Origin: Methanococcoides sp.
Lineage (GTDB): Archaea; Halobacteriota; Methanosarcinia; Methanosarcinales; Methanosarcinaceae
NCBI GenBank assembly: GCA_021108185.1
Contig: JAIORJ010000180.1
Coordinates: 1-41,872, forward strand
DNA: 41,872 bases
Reading direction: 5' to 3'
Position numbers and translations under genes: made by a program. The notes beneath the pieces are model-generated. The model ran no database searches. It had not been told where the DNA came from and saw nothing but the letters and a program-made list of their open reading frames with translations. Numbering within the stretch: position 1 is the first letter of the stretch; each line of letters starts with the position of its first letter. Of the stretch, positions 2,841 to 20,479 are shown one piece after another.

Positions 2841-2850
2841 TATTATATAA
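2841..2850 (+). promoter_or_regulatory. TATA box of the ergothioneine-type operon
   Basis: TATTATATAA is centred about 26 nt upstream of the ATG at 2872. This is the archaeal TATA-to-start spacing expected if transcription begins at or next to the start codon. No Shine-Dalgarno sequence precedes the ATG, so a leaderless mRNA is inferred. Confidence 0.6.
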
Positions 2851-2871: not shown

Positions 2872-4134
2872 ATGGGGGAAATTGTAACTAAAGAATTAGC
2901 TGAGAGCTTGCATAAGTATAAGGTTATTGACATAAGGCCTATTGATGCTTATAATGGATGGAAGGAAGGTGGAGAGGCAAGAGGTGGGCACATAAAGGGT
3001 GCAAAGACACTGCCGTATAAATGGTTACACTATATTGACTGGATAGAGATCGTCAGGAATAAAGGGATCCTGCCGGAAGATGCTCTGGTCATTTATGGGT
3101 ATGACAGGCAGAGAACGGAAGAGGTGGCAAGGCAATTTGGAAAGGCCGGCTACCCTGACGTGACCGTTTACAACTCTTTTCTTGAATGGGCGGAAAATGA
3201 TCTACCCATGGAGCATCTTGAAAGATATAGCCAGCTGGTCTCAGCGGATTGGCTTGACCAATTGATCACTACAAATGAAGCACCTGAATATGACAATGAT
3301 AAGTTCGTGTTATGTCATTCTCACTACAGGAACCCTGCCGATTATGAGAAGGGGCATATCCCGGGAGCGATATCCATTGACACAACCTCTCTTGAATATG
3401 AGGATAACTGGAATCGCCGCTCCCCTGAAGAACTAAAGGAGGTCCTGGAAGATGCAGGCATAACACATGATACCACGGTCATTCTCTATGGAAGGTTCTC
3501 CTCACCAAGTTATGATGATCCGTTCCCGGGAAGCAGCGCAGGCCATCTGGGTGCAATGAGGTGTGCATTCATCATGCTCTATGCTGGCGTAAAGGATGTT
3601 CGCATACTCAATGGTGGCATTCAGTCCTGGCTTGATTCAGGCTATGACATCACAAAGGACCCTGCTGAAAATAATAGGGTCTCCTTTGGGATCGACATTC
3701 CTCAAAGACCGGAGATCGTTGTTGATCTTGAAGAAGCAAAAGAGATCCTTTCATCTCCTGACAAGAACCTGGTGTGCATCAGAAGCTGGAGAGAATACAT
3801 CGGGGAAATAAGTGGTTATCACTATATCGATGAGAAAGGAAGGATACCGGGAGCAGTGTTCGGGGATTGCGGAACAGATGCCTACCACATGGAGAACTAC
3901 AGGAACCTGGACCACACCATGAGCGAAGCTCAGGAAGTTGCAGAGATCTGGGAGAAGATCGGGATCGTTCCCGAAAAGCGCAACGCGTTCTACTGCGGAA
4001 CAGGCTGGAGGGGGAGTGAAGCCTTCTTTAACGCCTGGCTCATGGGCTGGGATAACGCAGCAGTCTATGATGGCGGATGGCTTGAATGGAGCAATAACAA
4101 GCTTCCTTCTGAAAAGGGTGTGCCTGAACAATGA
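2872..4134 (+). CDS. eanB: Triple-rhodanese sulfurtransferase, EanB-like (ergothioneine synthase)
   Basis: A 420-residue protein of three rhodanese modules (about 1-115, 125-265 and 280-415). The first two lack a cysteine in the active-site loop (YGYDRQRT and YGRFSSPSY). The third has YCGTGWRG with Cys375. In green sulfur bacteria EanB carries a persulfide on the equivalent cysteine and transfers the sulfur to the imidazole C2 of hercynine without oxygen. As I recall, that enzyme has the same Tyr-Cys-Gly-Thr-Gly-Trp-Arg loop, and a second active-site tyrosine 59 residues upstream corresponds here to Tyr316. It overlaps the next gene, an EgtD-type methyltransferase, by ATGA and leads a four-gene operon. 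The start fits a leaderless transcript. An ordinary thiosulfate sulfurtransferase is the alternative, but the loop and the context argue against it. The symbol is assigned by inference. Confidence 0.78.
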   Translation: MGEIVTKELAESLHKYKVIDIRPIDAYNGWKEGGEARGGHIKGAKTLPYKWLHYIDWIEIVRNKGILPEDALVIYGYDRQRTEEVARQFGKAGYPDVTVYNSFLEWAENDLPMEHLERYSQLVSADWLDQLITTNEAPEYDNDKFVLCHSHYRNPADYEKGHIPGAISIDTTSLEYEDNWNRRSPEELKEVLEDAGITHDTTVILYGRFSSPSYDDPFPGSSAGHLGAMRCAFIMLYAGVKDVRILNGGIQSWLDSGYDITKDPAENNRVSFGIDIPQRPEIVVDLEEAKEILSSPDKNLVCIRSWREYIGEISGYHYIDEKGRIPGAVFGDCGTDAYHMENYRNLDHTMSEAQEVAEIWEKIGIVPEKRNAFYCGTGWRGSEAFFNAWLMGWDNAAVYDGGWLEWSNNKLPSEKGVPEQ

Positions 4135-5093
4135 TCATAGAAGATTTCATGCCCGAGATCGGAGAATGTTCTATTCGGGAAGAACTGCTGGCTTGCCTGA
4201 GATCCGATCCTAAAACCCTCCCCAGCATGTTCTTCTACGACAGTCATGGCTCAGAATTGTTCGAGGAGATAACCAAGTTAGAAGAATATTATCCTCCAAA
4301 GATCGAGATCCCATTGCTCAGGTCAACTGCTCAAAAATTGAAACAGGAGATCCAAGACAATGACCTTGTAGAGCTTGGAAGCGGGGACTGTTCAAAGATC
4401 TCAGTATTCCTCGATGAAGTCCCAAAAGAGGTCCGTCAGACAATAGTCTATTATCCGGTTGACGTCTGCAAAGATTCCATAGAGAGATCTGCTTGCAATC
4501 TTCAGTATAGATATCCTGAAATGAAGGTCCACGGGATCACTGCTGACTTCCTCGAACATATTGAAATGATCCCGGGAAAAAGAAAAAGGCTCTTCTGTTT
4601 CTTCGGAAGCACAATCGGTAATCTCACTGAAGCAAGATCAATGGAATTCATGACAGATCTCGGCAAAGCCATGAACAAGAACGACAGGCTTCTCCTTGGA
4701 ATGGACATGGTAAAAGATATTGAGATCATTGAAAGAGCCTACAATGACAGCCAGGGGATCACTGCAGAATTCAATAAGAACATATTGAAAGTTGCAAATG
4801 ATCATCTTGGAACGAATTTCGATCCGGAGGAATTTGAGCACGTTGCATTCTTCAATAGAAAATACTCCCGGATCGAGATGCACCTGAAAGCAAAAAATGA
4901 TCTGGAAGTGACAAGCCCCATATTAGATGAGAAAATTATCTTCAAAAAAGGCGAGACGATACACACAGAGAACTCCCATAAATATACTGTTGATGGTATC
5001 AAAAAAATGGCAGGAGCCGCAGGGCTTTCCGTAGAGAACATCTTTAGCGATGATAAAAAATGGTTCTCCCTTGTTGAGATGGTGAAAAGATGA
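4131..5093 (+). CDS. egtD: L-histidine N-alpha-methyltransferase (EgtD/EanA family)
   Basis: A 320-residue SAM-dependent enzyme that trimethylates the alpha-amino group of histidine to give hercynine. Family hallmarks are visible: FFYDSHGSELFEEIT (34-48), EEYYPPKIE (51-59), the SAM motif VELGSGDCSKI (80-90), GSTIGNL (159-165), GMDMVKD (190-196), AYNDSQGITAEFN (203-215) and TENSHKY (279-285). Asn164, Tyr204, Glu280 and Ser282 match mycobacterial EgtD residues Asn166, Tyr206, Glu282 and Ser284 with a constant offset of two, so histidine binding looks intact. The length equals that of the family. The gene overlaps both neighbours by ATGA. No EgtB or EgtC (oxygen-dependent route) is present, so hercynine is probably passed to the EanB-like product of the preceding gene. 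Confidence 0.85.
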   Translation: MIIEDFMPEIGECSIREELLACLRSDPKTLPSMFFYDSHGSELFEEITKLEEYYPPKIEIPLLRSTAQKLKQEIQDNDLVELGSGDCSKISVFLDEVPKEVRQTIVYYPVDVCKDSIERSACNLQYRYPEMKVHGITADFLEHIEMIPGKRKRLFCFFGSTIGNLTEARSMEFMTDLGKAMNKNDRLLLGMDMVKDIEIIERAYNDSQGITAEFNKNILKVANDHLGTNFDPEEFEHVAFFNRKYSRIEMHLKAKNDLEVTSPILDEKIIFKKGETIHTENSHKYTVDGIKKMAGAAGLSVENIFSDDKKWFSLVEMVKR

Positions 5094-6271
5094 AAGATTT
5101 TGCAAAAGATTTTCCCATACTTGCACAAAAGGTCTACGGGAAAAGATTGGTTTATCTTGATAACGCAGCAACGACCCAAAAACCGGATACTGTGATCGAT
5201 ACTATATCTGATTTCTATAGGTCAGATAACAGTAATATCCACAGGGGTGTGCATTACCTGAGCGAGGTCTCAAGTGAAAGGTATGAGGAAGCACGAAAAA
5301 AAGTCAGTGACTTCATAGGTGCCCGTAACTCAAGTGAAGTGACATTCACTTCCGGAACAACCGGTTCCATTAATCAGGTCGCACGCTCGCTCGGACCTTC
5401 CTTAAGGGGAAACGAAGTTTTGGTGACCGGTGTGGAACACCACTCAAATATCGTGCCGTGGCAACTTGCAGGAGCAAAAGTAAAGGCAATTCCCATGGAT
5501 GACGATTGCAACTTGCTGATAGACTCAATGGAGATCACGAATAAAACAAAATTGATAGCTATAGCTCATGCCTCAAATGTTCTTGGTTGTGTAAATGAGA
5601 TCAAAGAGATAACTAAAATTGCAAAGGATCACGACATCCCGGTCCTGGTGGATGCAGCCCAGTCAATACAGCATTTGCCTCTTGATGTAAAGGACATCGG
5701 TTGCGATTTTTTAGCTTTCTCAGGCCATAAGATGTATGCATCAACCGGAGTTGGAGTGCTTTATACAAGCGATCGCTTCAGTGATATCATGCCGGCAATA
5801 GGCGGAGGGGGCATGATCGATAGAGTAAGTCTTGATAAAACAACTTATCTGGATCCTCCTTTAAGGTTTGAAGCAGGCACGCCAGACATTGCAGGAGCAA
5901 TAAGTATCAGTGCAGCTATCGATTACATGCAAAAAATAGGCATGGATAAAATAAAAAACCATGAGCATGACGTATATTCCTACTCGAGGGACAAACTGCT
6001 GGAAATGGATAATGTGATGGTTTACGGAAATACTAATGAGATGTGTGGAGCTGTCTCATTTAATCTGGACAAGATCCACCATTATGATACAGGATTGATA
6101 TTGGACAAGATAGGGGTCGCTGTCAGGACCGGACATCATTGCGCCCAACCATTGATGAGATCACTCGGTATCGAAGGCACAGTGAGAGCAAGTTTTGCAT
6201 TGTACAATACAAAAGAAGATGTTGACATGCTGGTCGAAGGGATAGAAAAAGTAGAGATGATGTACAAGTGA
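5090..6271 (+). CDS. sufS: Cysteine desulfurase, SufS type
   Basis: A 393-residue PLP-dependent, class V aminotransferase fold enzyme of group II. It converts cysteine to alanine and holds the sulfur as a persulfide. YLDNAATTQKP opens the protein. The PLP lysine is Lys214 in FSGHKMYASTG, VEHHSNIVPW is the cofactor-site segment, and Cys351 in RTGHHCAQPLM accepts sulfur. No residue is missing. The ATG overlaps the methyltransferase stop, and the stop overlaps the sufE start as GTGA. sufBCD is absent nearby, so this copy is probably dedicated to the rhodanese-like enzyme and not to general Fe-S assembly. That assignment is inference from the operon. Confidence 0.9.
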   Translation: MKDFAKDFPILAQKVYGKRLVYLDNAATTQKPDTVIDTISDFYRSDNSNIHRGVHYLSEVSSERYEEARKKVSDFIGARNSSEVTFTSGTTGSINQVARSLGPSLRGNEVLVTGVEHHSNIVPWQLAGAKVKAIPMDDDCNLLIDSMEITNKTKLIAIAHASNVLGCVNEIKEITKIAKDHDIPVLVDAAQSIQHLPLDVKDIGCDFLAFSGHKMYASTGVGVLYTSDRFSDIMPAIGGGGMIDRVSLDKTTYLDPPLRFEAGTPDIAGAISISAAIDYMQKIGMDKIKNHEHDVYSYSRDKLLEMDNVMVYGNTNEMCGAVSFNLDKIHHYDTGLILDKIGVAVRTGHHCAQPLMRSLGIEGTVRASFALYNTKEDVDMLVEGIEKVEMMYK

Positions 6272-6684
6272 ACGACGTTATTCAGGATGAGATCATAGAA
6301 GAGTTTGACGGCCTTGAATGGTTTGACAAATATTCCCTCCTTATCTCTTTCGGCAAAAAGCTCAAACCGATGGATGAGGAGTTTAAGATTGAAGAAAATT
6401 CGATCAGCGGATGCCAATCCAAAGTTTGGGTTAGAAGTTACAATAAAGATGGAAAATTGAGCTTTGATCTCGATAGTGATGCCATGATAACTAAGGGGAT
6501 CATTGCCCTTGTAGCTAAGGTAGTAAACGACCGGTATCCTCAAGAGATCTTAAATGCTGACCTGTATTTTATTGACAAGATTGGATTGAAGTCAAATCTC
6601 TCGCCTGCAAGATCAAATGGACTGGAGTCGATCATCAATAGGATAAAAGAGGTGGCTTCAAACGAGGTGAATTTGAACAGTTGA
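6268..6684 (+). CDS. sufE: SufE-like sulfur acceptor
   Basis: A 138-residue SufE-family protein starting at a GTG that overlaps the sufS stop (GTGA). The family signature SISGCQSKVWV contains Cys49, which accepts persulfide sulfur from SufS and raises its turnover. The rest (FGKKLKPMDEEFKIEEN and LSPARSNGLESIINRIKE) matches the family along its full length. As last gene of the operon it would relay sulfur from cysteine desulfurase to Cys375 of the triple-rhodanese protein. The relay is inferred from gene order. A recurrent hairpin follows 55 nt downstream. Confidence 0.9.
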   Translation: MNDVIQDEIIEEFDGLEWFDKYSLLISFGKKLKPMDEEFKIEENSISGCQSKVWVRSYNKDGKLSFDLDSDAMITKGIIALVAKVVNDRYPQEILNADLYFIDKIGLKSNLSPARSNGLESIINRIKEVASNEVNLNS

Positions 6685-6834: not shown

Positions 6835-7212
6835 TCAATCAATAATATTCAATATTTTCTTGGTCAACTCCGCGCTTTGTTCCGTACATTCTGAAATAGA
6901 GTCATCGACACATTCTTTATATGCAAATTCAGAAAGTTCGTAAAGCACTCTGTTCAAATTATTACCTTTACCTGTAAGATGATATTCTATAGACAAAGGT
7001 GTCTTGGAAACGATCACTTTTTCTATCAATTCATCCTGTTCTAACTGGCGTAATTTATCGGATAACACCTTACTGCTGAGTTTGGGATTGCTCTTTAAGA
7101 ACTCATTGAATTGTTTCTTGCCACAGAACATGTCCCTGATAATATTAAGGGTCCACTTTTTGCTTATTATTTTGATCGCTTTGTCTATAGGGCTGCGTTT
7201 CAATTCTCCCAT
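6835..7212 (-). CDS. HxlR-family winged-helix transcriptional regulator
   Basis: A 125-residue HxlR-type regulator. The N-terminus SPIDKAIKIISKKWTLNIIR is the usual lead-in to the winged helix. LKSNPKLSSKVLSDKLRQLE is the recognition-helix region and SIEYHLTGKG the wing. The start ATG at 7212 has an AGGTGA ribosome-binding site. HxlR itself, in Bacillus, activates formaldehyde-fixing genes in response to formaldehyde. Here the gene is transcribed divergently from fae, whose product consumes formaldehyde. Regulation of fae is therefore a reasonable inference, but the effector cannot be read from the sequence. It has no N-terminal cysteine near the DNA-binding domain (its first is Cys30, in DMFCGKK). 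Confidence 0.85.
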   Translation of the reverse strand: MGELKRSPIDKAIKIISKKWTLNIIRDMFCGKKQFNEFLKSNPKLSSKVLSDKLRQLEQDELIEKVIVSKTPLSIEYHLTGKGNNLNRVLYELSEFAYKECVDDSISECTEQSAELTKKILNIID

Positions 7213-16877: not shown

Positions 16878-18131
16878 ATGAACAAATATATTGTGAAATG
16901 CCCCGGATGCGGAGAAGTTCGTGACCCATACGCATTACACTGCCCTGATGATGATGCATTACCACGTACCGAATACTTCAAAAAGCAGATCGAACCAACC
17001 GATATGCCGGGAATATGGAGATATTACGATTGGCTGCCCGTGAACGGCATAATCGAGAAAGGTTCCGGCAGACCCGTGACCTACAAAAGTGAAGGGTTTG
17101 CAAAAGAGCTGGGATTGAACGACCTGAACATAACTTTCAATGGATACTGGCCTGAAAAAGAGGGTGCCATAAGAACATGCAGTTTTAAAGACCTTGAATC
17201 GTTCCCAACCATACAGCGCCTCATGGAACACAATGAGAAGAGGGTGCTCGTTGTAGCATCCGCCGGCAATACTGCCAGGGCATTTGCTCATGTGGCATCA
17301 ATAACAGGATATCCGTTATTGCTCGTAGTTCCAAAGAACAGCACACATAGGCTCTGGACAACTGAAGAGGACACATCTTCGGTCTGTACGGTAACAGTAG
17401 ATGGTGATTACTATCAGGCCATCGCAATGGCAGAAAAGATAGCAGCAAGGGATGGTTTTGTCAGTGAAGGCGGAGCACGCAACGTTGCCAGACGCGATGG
17501 CATGGGTACCGTGATGCTTGATGCAGTTCTCACGACAAAGAGCCTACCCCAGCATTATTTCCAGGCTGTCGGAAGCGGTACTGGCGGAATATCCGCATGG
17601 GAAGCTTCCATGAGGCTAATAGAAGATGGCCGTTTCGGGAATAATATGCCACGCCTTCATCTTGCACAAAACTTGCCATGTGCCCCTCTTTATTCAACCT
17701 GGACAGGCGAACAGACCAATGGGAACTGCCCGGAAGAGATGTACGATGATGTGCTGTTCAACAGAAAACCACCATACGGAGCCATCGGTGGAGTGAAGGA
17801 TGCCCTTGATGACACTAATGGGATCATCTACGGAATAACGAACAAAGAAGCTGACAAGGCAAGAAAGCTCTTTGAAGAGAACGAAGGCATTGACATATTA
17901 CCTGCTCCTGCAATTGCCTGTGCAGCCATTATGAAAGCTCTGGAAAAAGGCGAGATAAAGGCTGATGAAAGTATTGTTCTGAACATTACCGGAGGAGGTC
18001 AGAAACGCCTGGAAGAGGAATTACCGACCCGTCAGTTGGGTGTTGATCTTGCAGTATCCTCTGATGATATGGATGCAGAGAACAAGATATTGGAAAAGGT
18101 CGCTGAACTTTTAAAGAACAGAGGTTATTGA
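16878..18131 (+). CDS. Cysteate synthase (threonine synthase-derived)
   Basis: A 417-residue PLP enzyme that exchanges the phosphate of O-phosphoserine for sulfite to give L-cysteate, the first step of the Methanosarcinales coenzyme M route. A zinc-ribbon-like N-terminus (CPGCG at 8-12, Cys22) precedes the fold-type II core. The PLP lysine is Lys104 in RTCSFKDLESF, where threonine synthase has GSFKDRG. VVASAGNTARAFAHVA and VGSGTGGISAWE bind the cofactor. The distinction from threonine synthase rests on the neighbours, comD and comE, which act two steps later, and on the unusual CSFKDLE loop. It starts the operon and is probably leaderless. Confidence 0.9.
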   Translation: MNKYIVKCPGCGEVRDPYALHCPDDDALPRTEYFKKQIEPTDMPGIWRYYDWLPVNGIIEKGSGRPVTYKSEGFAKELGLNDLNITFNGYWPEKEGAIRTCSFKDLESFPTIQRLMEHNEKRVLVVASAGNTARAFAHVASITGYPLLLVVPKNSTHRLWTTEEDTSSVCTVTVDGDYYQAIAMAEKIAARDGFVSEGGARNVARRDGMGTVMLDAVLTTKSLPQHYFQAVGSGTGGISAWEASMRLIEDGRFGNNMPRLHLAQNLPCAPLYSTWTGEQTNGNCPEEMYDDVLFNRKPPYGAIGGVKDALDDTNGIIYGITNKEADKARKLFEENEGIDILPAPAIACAAIMKALEKGEIKADESIVLNITGGGQKRLEEELPTRQLGVDLAVSSDDMDAENKILEKVAELLKNRGY

Positions 18132-18169
18132 ATGAACGGTGCCATCGATCTTAAAGTGTGGTGATACAA

Positions 18170-18667
18170 ATGGATGCCAGTGTAGCAGTATTTAACGGTA
18201 TAAAGATGACAGGCGTGGACTTTGTAGTGAGTGTACCCTGCATCAACCTGAAAGAAATATTCCCCATGATCGATGATGATCCTACGATGATACATATTCC
18301 GGTCACGCGTGAAGAGGAAGGTGTGGGCATCTGTGCCGGAGCTTACATGGGAGGAAGGATCCCCGCAATGCTAATGCAAAATTCGGGACTAGGGAACTCG
18401 ATCAATGCTTTGGCATCATTGAACACCCTTTTTCATATCCCGCTACTCCTTATAATGAGCCACCGTGGTTGTGAAGGGGAGACGATCTGTGCACAGTACC
18501 CAATGGGACAAATGACACCTTCGTTACTTGATACCCTTGACATACCATATGTCATTCCCACCATCGATACTGTGGAAGACGCAATACACTATGCGTGGAG
18601 AATAGCCATTGAAAAAAAGAGACCTGTAGCAGTTCTTCTTGAGATTGGGTTCTGGGAGGCAGAATGA
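18170..18667 (+). CDS. comD: Sulfopyruvate decarboxylase, alpha subunit
   Basis: A 165-residue subunit, homologous to the PYR half of thiamine-diphosphate decarboxylases. With ComE it decarboxylates 3-sulfopyruvate to sulfoacetaldehyde in coenzyme M synthesis. VSVPCINLKEIFPMI, HIPVTREEEGVGICAGAYMG (with the activating glutamate) and LMQNSGLGNSINAL are typical. The frame is open to a GTG at 18158, but GGTGAT at 18160-18165 places the start at ATG 18170. It follows cysteate synthase by 38 nt and overlaps comE by ATGA. The aminotransferase that links cysteate to sulfopyruvate is not in the window. Confidence 0.92.
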   Translation: MDASVAVFNGIKMTGVDFVVSVPCINLKEIFPMIDDDPTMIHIPVTREEEGVGICAGAYMGGRIPAMLMQNSGLGNSINALASLNTLFHIPLLLIMSHRGCEGETICAQYPMGQMTPSLLDTLDIPYVIPTIDTVEDAIHYAWRIAIEKKRPVAVLLEIGFWEAE

Positions 18668-19233
18668 AACGTTTCGATGCCATTAAAGCGATAGTTCAAA
18701 AGGCAGAAGATAAGGATTCACTCCTCATCTGCAATATTGGATACCCTTCCCGCGAACTACATGATCTGAAAGACAGGAGTGCGAATTTCTACATGCTGGG
18801 TTCAATGGGACTATCATCATCCATCGGTCTTGGAGTTGCCCTTTCAGTTCCCGAGAGGCATGTCATAGCAATAGACGGGGACGGTTCGGTCCTGATGAAC
18901 ATGGGAAGTCTTGCCACCATTGCACACCAACATCCTAAAAATTACCTTTTGGTAGTGATAGATAATGGAGCCTACGGTTCTACCGGAGACCAGCTCACAG
19001 CTACAGCTCTTGGTACCGATCTCGCAATCGTTGCAAAAGGAGCTGGTATCGATGAAGTTCATAATACTTTCAGCGAAGAGGAATTCAGGGAGAAACTAAA
19101 AAATGTTGACAGGGGAGTAATTGTGGTGCACGTTGATGCAGGAAATTCAAAAGTTCCTGTGATACACCTGACCCCTGAAAAGATAATAGAAAGGTTCATG
19201 TCCGAATGCGCTCGACCATCGATGTCATCCTGA
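18664..19233 (+). CDS. comE: Sulfopyruvate decarboxylase, beta subunit
   Basis: A 189-residue subunit corresponding to the PP half of thiamine-diphosphate enzymes. The TPP/magnesium motif runs from IDGDGSVLMNMGSLATIA to VIDNGAYGSTG. FYMLGSMGLSSSIGLGVALS is the usual dimer-interface segment. It is separate from comD and overlaps it by 4 nt. In some relatives the two are fused. Its 3' end overlaps the convergent DUF39 gene by 38 nt, so the two mRNAs are complementary at their ends. Confidence 0.93.
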   Translation: MKRFDAIKAIVQKAEDKDSLLICNIGYPSRELHDLKDRSANFYMLGSMGLSSSIGLGVALSVPERHVIAIDGDGSVLMNMGSLATIAHQHPKNYLLVVIDNGAYGSTGDQLTATALGTDLAIVAKGAGIDEVHNTFSEEEFREKLKNVDRGVIVVHVDAGNSKVPVIHLTPEKIIERFMSECARPSMSS

Positions 19234-20479
19234 AAGAACCATCAAGTATCTGTTCTTTTAACTTTTCGGATAATTCCAGAGCCCTTTTCTTATCAGACTG
19301 ACGCAGGACGATAGGAACATTTGTGGACTCCCCTCCAAGCTCAAAATTGATGGAACCAAGATTGGCAGTGTAAACATCGGTCACACACAGAGTGGAACAA
19401 AGACCGCAATTGAAACATGTGTACCGGTCAAGTTTTACCTCACCATCCTCAAAGCTGATAGAAGCCATGGGACACATCTCCGCAGGTTCACACAAAGTAC
19501 AGCCAATGCATTCATTCGGGCTGAAATCTATCATAAGGTCCGTACCTTCCCATACATCGCCATAGTCGGAATAACCAACACATGCCCTTTTATCAACGGC
19601 CATTACCGGCATCTTAAGCTGCCTGTCACGTTCCTGTATCGATTCGAGCACTGAATCACTTGTCACAGGAACAGGAACAGCCCAGGAAACAATACATTCC
19701 GGACCCGCTGACGTGAAAAAGCCACCCATGTATTCAGGAATCATCCCATGCATATCCGCAAAGGCCGTAAGGTTAGGTTTTTCCGCACTACTGCGGGTCC
19801 CGGACCCCATTATGAAACCTTCGGAGCCGTTCATGAGCATCCGCGTTCCAATCCCAATGGATTCCAGGAGAGGATCGTTCTTCACAGGATTTATCTGACC
19901 GCAACCGGAAATTGTAGCCTCTGTAAGCCTTGGCCCAAACTCCATGGCATGGAATATGCTGGCTGCCGGCTCATCCGAAGTGTTCACAAATGCGGAATAG
20001 TTCTTGAAAGCATGCCTTGTACCGTAGAGCATAGCATACGGCATATCATCAAGTGTTACCTTTGTCTTGAACGAATCGCCTTTATCAGTAACTACCTTGA
20101 CCTCCACAGACATTCCCTCTGCAAGGTCACGGAAAAGATGACCTGCACCATAACGGGAATCATCCACACTATGATCTGTACCGAAAAGCATCAGGTCAAG
20201 AATACCAAGCCTTTCGTTGGGACAGGGACCAACGTGTGCAGGCACACCATTCATATAGACTTCTTTTGCACGTAAGAAACTGTGTGAAGACTCCACAGGA
20301 AATGACAGGATCGCGTATGTACCACTCATTATGGCACGCGTAGCTGCTGTCACGACATCCACATCTTCAGCCCTTATATCTTCCCCACTATCCACAAGAT
20401 CACAGACCTGTTGAGCAGTAAGCACAACTGCATCTCCTTTTTCGATCTTGCGATTTATCTGTTCAATGCTTTGTTCCAT
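19196..20479 (-). CDS. DUF39/COG1900 sulfur-incorporation protein with two 4Fe-4S sites
   Basis: A 427-residue protein. The DUF39 (COG1900) domain occupies about 1-310 (GTYAILSFPVESSHSFLRAK, GHLFRDLAEGMSVEV, GSGTRSSAEKPNL). Two ferredoxin clusters follow: CIGCTLCEPAEMCP, which has an enlarged last spacing, and CFNCGLCSTLCV. COG1900 relatives in methanogens take part in sulfur insertion into aldehydes, as in homocysteine formation from aspartate semialdehyde. Its place beside the comDE genes suggests thiolation of sulfoacetaldehyde to coenzyme M; that role is inference. A good AGGTGAT site precedes the ATG. It overlaps comE tail to tail. Confidence 0.8.
   Translation of the reverse strand: MEQSIEQINRKIEKGDAVVLTAQQVCDLVDSGEDIRAEDVDVVTAATRAIMSGTYAILSFPVESSHSFLRAKEVYMNGVPAHVGPCPNERLGILDLMLFGTDHSVDDSRYGAGHLFRDLAEGMSVEVKVVTDKGDSFKTKVTLDDMPYAMLYGTRHAFKNYSAFVNTSDEPAASIFHAMEFGPRLTEATISGCGQINPVKNDPLLESIGIGTRMLMNGSEGFIMGSGTRSSAEKPNLTAFADMHGMIPEYMGGFFTSAGPECIVSWAVPVPVTSDSVLESIQERDRQLKMPVMAVDKRACVGYSDYGDVWEGTDLMIDFSPNECIGCTLCEPAEMCPMASISFEDGEVKLDRYTCFNCGLCSTLCVTDVYTANLGSINFELGGESTNVPIVLRQSDKKRALELSEKLKEQILDGSFRMTSMVERIRT

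Follow-up and report, generated by a model that had tools for sequence, protein, structure and literature searches.

The EanA/EanB system of Chlorobium limicola (Clim_1148/Clim_1149; Burn 2017; 6H98, 6KTV), which pairs an EgtD-type methyltransferase with a triple-rhodanese synthase, resembles the operon analysed here down to the catalytic residues, but its EanB belongs to a group without linked SufS and SufE, whereas the methanogen operon encodes both, joined by 4-nt overlaps. According to a review's account of Burn 2017, the EanA/EanB pair was noted in over 20 anaerobes, both bacterial and archaeal (PMC9103826). Adjacent EanA-like and EanB-like genes have also been reported in Methanococcoides vulcani, with a proposal of ergothioneine synthesis by methanogens (Rawat and Maupin-Furlow, 2020; PMC7278568). 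These genes are orthologous to ours, from the same genus and with the same adjacency, EanB being 93% identical; the passages of that report devoted to them treat the EanA/EanB pair only and leave the downstream SufS and SufE unmentioned. That archaea employ the rhodanese route is also stated in a 2022 abstract (PMC9516567). The initial annotation of the present locus had regarded ergothioneine in a methanogen as notable; as EanA/EanB had been reported earlier in Methanococcoides and in archaea, this headline is right but not new. In the literature searched, EanB is not described together with SufE, although the original EanB papers may mention such a linkage.

Three further systems share parts of the design. 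MES, the metallopterin-dependent ergothioneine synthase of Caldithrix abyssi (PMC9516567), likewise provides for anaerobic ergothioneine synthesis with cysteine sulfur delivered via a PLP-dependent cysteine desulfurase; there, desulfurase and molybdopterin enzyme are fused into one protein, without rhodanese or SufE, while the operon would draw on cysteine in an equivalent manner by means of separate proteins. The SufS-SufE couple of the Escherichia coli SUF system comprises the same families with catalytic cysteine and lysine, encoded by adjacent genes, but the operon lacks sufBCD, its SufS belongs to a separate lineage and its SufE scores below the SUF equivalog cut-off. In Mycobacterium tuberculosis, a SufE-like protein, SufE(Mtb), is encoded beside the rhodanese SseA, which it binds and activates; unlike in the operon, this rhodanese has two domains, was assayed with cyanide and comes without methyltransferase or SufS (PMC12375888).

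Layout and promoter of a rigid four-gene operon

The window, i.e. the whole stretch of 41,872 nucleotides that was analysed, derives from a Methanococcoides host and contains genes typical of methanogens, among them one for a formaldehyde-activating enzyme. On its plus strand, eanB (2872-4134; triple-rhodanese ergothioneine synthase, 420 aa), eanA/egtD (4131-5093; histidine N-alpha-methyltransferase, 320 aa), sufS (5090-6271; SufS-type cysteine desulfurase, 393 aa) and sufE (6268-6684; SufE-type sulfur carrier, 138 aa, GTG start) follow each other with overlaps of 4 nt each, ATGA, ATGA and GTGA. The operon is real: the same four genes, in the same order and with near-identical spacing and overlaps, were found in 22 of 22 Methanosarcinaceae copies examined. 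A TATA-box-like element, TTATATAA (2843-2850, plus strand), is centred approximately 26 nt 5' of the eanB ATG, and a similar A/T block about 20-30 nt upstream of this codon recurs in nearly all 23 orthologue upstream regions from Methanococcoides, Methanohalophilus, Methanolobus and Methanosalsum, although the flanking DNA diverges; one Methanohalophilus copy (L129) is without a clear block. Its maintenance fits one archaeal promoter and implies that the predicted transcript would be leaderless or possess a very short leader. The initial annotation, which had described a four-gene run at 2872-6684 with these overlaps under one TATA box, is thus exact to the base, with the TATA block conserved.

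A fifth conserved gene or regulator was not found beside the Methanosarcinaceae copies, the neighbours of which are conserved within genera only. An HxlR-family regulator (6835-7212, minus strand), convergent with sufE and with sub-threshold similarity to the redox regulators RrpA/RrpB, is not kept beside the operon in relatives and was rejected as an operon partner. Base composition proved uninformative with respect to a foreign origin, with 44.1% G+C in the operon versus 43.2% in the window. Elsewhere, the window holds the C-terminal portion of a type I restriction R subunit (PF22679; 345-1869, minus strand), apparently divided between two frames that overlap; it has probably suffered a frameshift or is a remnant. 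PLP synthase-like, TPP-enzyme C-terminal-domain and homocysteine-biosynthesis (HcyBio) genes (16878-20479) probably constitute a coenzyme M and sulfur-assimilation neighbourhood.

Rhodanese and methyltransferase

The annotation of the first gene product as EanB-like triple rhodanese is borne out at several levels. Three stretches match Rhodanese (PF00581) in the Pfam profile search, and in the alignment sequence identity amounts to 60% with C. limicola EanB (404 residues) and to 40% with E. coli YnjE. A PDB sequence search placed eight EanB chains on top with 562-571 bits, YnjE reaching 276 bits, and Foldseek with the predicted structure returned EanB structures as best matches, with 14 EanB chains ahead of YnjE. 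The AlphaFold model, built with 15 sequences (mean pLDDT 75.7, poor around residues 307-354, TM 0.65, domain placement uncertain), confirms the fold family as a prediction. By alignment, the catalytic Cys375 (codon 3994-3996, plus strand) in the CGTGWR loop corresponds to C. limicola Cys412, Tyr316 (codon 3817-3819, plus strand) to Tyr353, Thr377 to Thr414 and Arg380 to Arg417; all four are invariant in 99 aligned sequences.

The triple-rhodanese architecture, the CGTGWR loop and the tyrosine are shared with YnjE, annotated as a molybdopterin synthase sulfurtransferase, and could speak for a YnjE-like enzyme serving molybdopterin or tRNA thiolation. As these residues are common to both proteins, they are necessary for, but not diagnostic of, hercynine chemistry and were rejected as discriminator in favour of overall similarity and context. 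Besides the difference in identity, 38 positions conserved among EanB relatives differ in YnjE and EanB is linked or even fused to EanA, which leaves a YnjE-like function hardly credible and the assignment as EanB standing.

The second gene product is an EgtD-type histidine methyltransferase as annotated, since it surpasses the cut-off of the EgtD equivalog TIGR03438 (352 versus 290.9 bits) and the equivalents of all seven histidine-binding residues checked are identical (Tyr39, Tyr56, Asn166, Tyr206, Met252, Glu282 and Ser284 in M. smegmatis EgtD numbering). The functional link between EanB and EanA is reinforced by gene fusions in two Bacteroidales, which encode both in single frames of 749 and 754 aa (L075, 6007-8235; L090, 6007-8232), and by the EgtD-type enzymes encoded elsewhere in 15 of the 20 genomes in which EanB stands apart from EanA. 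EgtB (TIGR03440) has no match over cut-off in 112 Methanosarcinaceae genomes and none at all in the host, and the operon does not contain the metallopterin enzyme fused to a cysteine desulfurase that characterizes the MES pathway.

Several observations concern the variability of the methyltransferase. A second, divergent type of EanA, 30-36% identical to the one in the window, adjoins EanB in Bacteroidota (L062, L072, L077, L080, L093 and others), and the Met252 equivalent is serine in 10 of 71 EanA sequences. In a single-contig Methanococcoides genome (L122, G021), eanA carries an in-frame TAG at about codon 126, a variable position with mostly lysine or arginine in relatives; the codon may be read as pyrrolysine, or the gene may be inactivated. 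Approximately 33 EanB-free genomes of Methanosarcina and other Methanosarcinaceae genera encode a distantly related Methyltransf_33 paralogue (E mostly near 1e-20).

Might the product be a related compound, either another thio-heterocycle or, with SufS acting on selenocysteine, selenoneine? EanB-like enzymes that sulfurize other heterocycles are expected in the field (PMC9516567), and the substrate range of EanB is little explored outside C. limicola. On the other hand, the checked histidine-binding residues are all kept, EanB is close in sequence to the characterized enzyme, a 38%-identical homologue together with another EanA gave rise to ergothioneine in vivo (PMC11767532) and selenoneine formation by EanB was reported as unsuccessful (PMC9103826), so that a different product appears improbable. 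Anaerobic ergothioneine synthesis is, on the strength of sequence, very likely the function of the operon; all sequence-level predictions tested for the oxygen-independent pathway claimed at the outset held, including the lack of EgtB, the fusions and the co-occurrence with SufE described below.

SufS and SufE are co-inherited with EanB

The two remaining genes were rightly named. SufS matches TIGR01979 with 510 bits (cut-off 475) and possesses the PLP-binding Lys214 and the persulfide Cys351; SufE matches PF02657 with 143 bits (cut-off 27), with the acceptor Cys49 located in GCQSKVW. The catalytic cysteines of both proteins are kept in all operon copies examined.

EanB is present in 29 of 112 Methanosarcinaceae genomes from four genera, within which its presence is patchy (Methanococcoides, 7/11; Methanohalophilus group, 5/8; Methanolobus group, 15/27; Methanosalsum group, 2/3; group names deduced from matching named loci). 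The co-occurrence of the four genes, put forward as a check in the initial annotation, turned out to be strict among these 112 genomes: SufE was found over cut-off in 30, comprising all 29 EanB-positive genomes and one of 83 EanB-negative genomes (Fisher p = 5e-26, uncorrected for kinship), and in this single exception (G051) the operon is cut as the contig ends inside EanA. In 28 of these genomes, sufE and the operon lie in one uninterrupted stretch, and contig ends separate them in the other two (G022, G053); in the host genome, the operon gene encodes the sole SufE. Operon-type SufS (at least 73% identity) occurs only with the operon and shows the same distribution, except for G022, where the gene falls in a contig gap; other SufS-like genes, mostly around 40% identical to the operon SufS, exist in 112 of 112 genomes. 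In one EanB-free Methanococcoides (G018; L121, contig C7, 287-394), the last approximately 29 sufE codons persist beside a YdjM-like gene, which is the 3' neighbour of the operon in relatives, thus indicating a decayed operon lost by deletion. With its absence from 4 of 11 Methanococcoides genomes, among them this decayed case, the operon is dispensable.

In a published survey, 10 of 132 Methanosarcinales were credited with SufE, which the authors treated as a component of the SUF system for Fe-S cluster assembly (PMC8351635); this would be in line with SufS and SufE serving that process and being only co-transcribed with eanAB. The four-gene cassette contains neither sufB nor sufC and has no neighbours conserved across genera, however, EanB-negative relatives make Fe-S clusters without SufE, and separate SufS genes are at hand in the genomes. 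Moreover, SufE reaches only 99.9 bits with NF006792, the equivalog for E. coli SufE, whose cut-off is 160, and the same SufS lineage adjoins EanB in many phyla. A role in Fe-S assembly is accordingly very improbable; the confinement of SufE to the EanB operon argues for ergothioneine synthesis instead, and the filing of methanogen SufE under Fe-S assembly looks wrong.

Spread of the cassette and the proposed path of sulfur

Beyond the methanogens, the order EanB-EanA-SufS-SufE was found in Phycisphaerae (L047), Aminicenantes (L048), Elusimicrobia (L052), Fibrobacter (L102), Omnitrophota (L056, L091, L096) and Thermoplasmata (L057, as well as L053, where a contig end truncates the cassette). 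Ignavibacteria, Calditrichota, Gemmatimonadota, Chitinivibrionales and others have EanB-SufE or EanB-SufS-SufE with no EanA alongside. EanB is rare in Thermoplasmatota (3 of 293 genomes) and in the phylum of the window itself (4 of 136 sampled genera, all four the Methanosarcinaceae ones), which suggests horizontal spread. The Methanosarcinaceae EanB proteins form one clade (support 100) next to a Caldithrix sequence (92).

On the EanB tree, which has an uncertain root and many poorly supported inner nodes, a single change accounts for the distribution of linked SufS/SufE. Forty-six EanB proteins without linked SufS/SufE, from Bacteroidota/Chlorobi and neighbours, group together with C. limicola EanB (node support 94), and all other EanB on the tree have linked SufS/SufE wherever the contig permits a view, this group uniting the methanogens with about ten other phyla. 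Likewise, the operon SufS of about ten phyla constitutes one branch (support 93, subject to the same reservations on inner nodes and root) versus 40 other SufS, among them additional copies from these very genomes and 29 taken from further genomes of the phylum that contains Aminicenantes. Positions which separate SufE-linked from unlinked EanB were found by sequence comparison; reading them as a place where SufE docks would require a good model of the complex.

We estimate a probability of about 0.78 that the four genes are transcribed as one unit which produces ergothioneine independently of oxygen and brings its own source of sulfur. The chemistry, the product, the direction in which sulfur flows and the contact of SufE with EanB are inferred as follows. 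EanA would methylate histidine three times with SAM to hercynine, while SufS would mobilize cysteine sulfur as a persulfide on Cys351. Cys49 of SufE would take over this sulfur and pass it to Cys375 of EanB, directly or as a short polysulfide, and the Cys375 persulfide sulfur would then replace the imidazole C2-H of hercynine to yield ergothioneine, with Tyr316 as putative acid/base. Components of such a relay have precedents, as IscS feeds EanB in vitro (PMC9103826) and a SufE-like protein can bind and activate a rhodanese (PMC12375888). A point against the overall reading is that Chlorobiaceae, when tested for thiols, yielded no sign that ergothioneine is a major one (PMC6282198).

A reading that assigns the same product and role to the operon differs in the last transfer step: EanB would use free polysulfide, and SufS and SufE would only raise the sulfane-sulfur/polysulfide pool. 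In C. limicola EanB, Cys412 resides at the end of a 13 Å tunnel, for which reason polysulfide has been argued to be the donor; polysulfide alone suffices in vitro, and the effect of IscS has been reinterpreted as polysulfide production (PMC9103826). With the cysteine buried and polysulfide sufficient, direct transfer from SufE to EanB may be sterically impossible. Indirect arguments point the other way, since a dedicated SufS and SufE would be superfluous in a sulfidic anaerobe were free polysulfide the donor, the known role of SufE is protected transfer, and SufE linkage follows one side of the EanB tree, which suggests coadaptation of SufE and EanB. We consider the use of free polysulfide a serious possibility, short of even odds.

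One may speculate that the four-gene cassette represents the older and more widespread form of anaerobic ergothioneine synthesis, cysteine-fed and with SufE loading the rhodanese directly, that the polysulfide-fed Chlorobium/Bacteroidota enzyme is a side branch which lost its dedicated feeder, and that methanogen SufE exists solely for ergothioneine; we regard this scenario as less likely than not.

Within the literature searched, three findings are new: a SufS-SufE module dedicated to the pathway, the strict inheritance of this module along with EanB, and the division of EanB into two groups. The module, welded to eanAB and conserved across many phyla, appears to be previously undescribed. 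The physiological sulfur donor of EanB, desulfurase or polysulfide, is disputed, and a conserved cassette that includes SufS and SufE allows the matter to be tested with the natural partner proteins. The SufE of methanogens would be reassigned from Fe-S assembly to thiol synthesis, and the cassette can serve as a genetic marker for candidate anaerobic ergothioneine producers in many phyla. Methanosarcinaceae hosts, including the named M. vulcani SLH 33 with an available genome, would provide a setting for asking what an antioxidant thiol does in the absence of oxygen.
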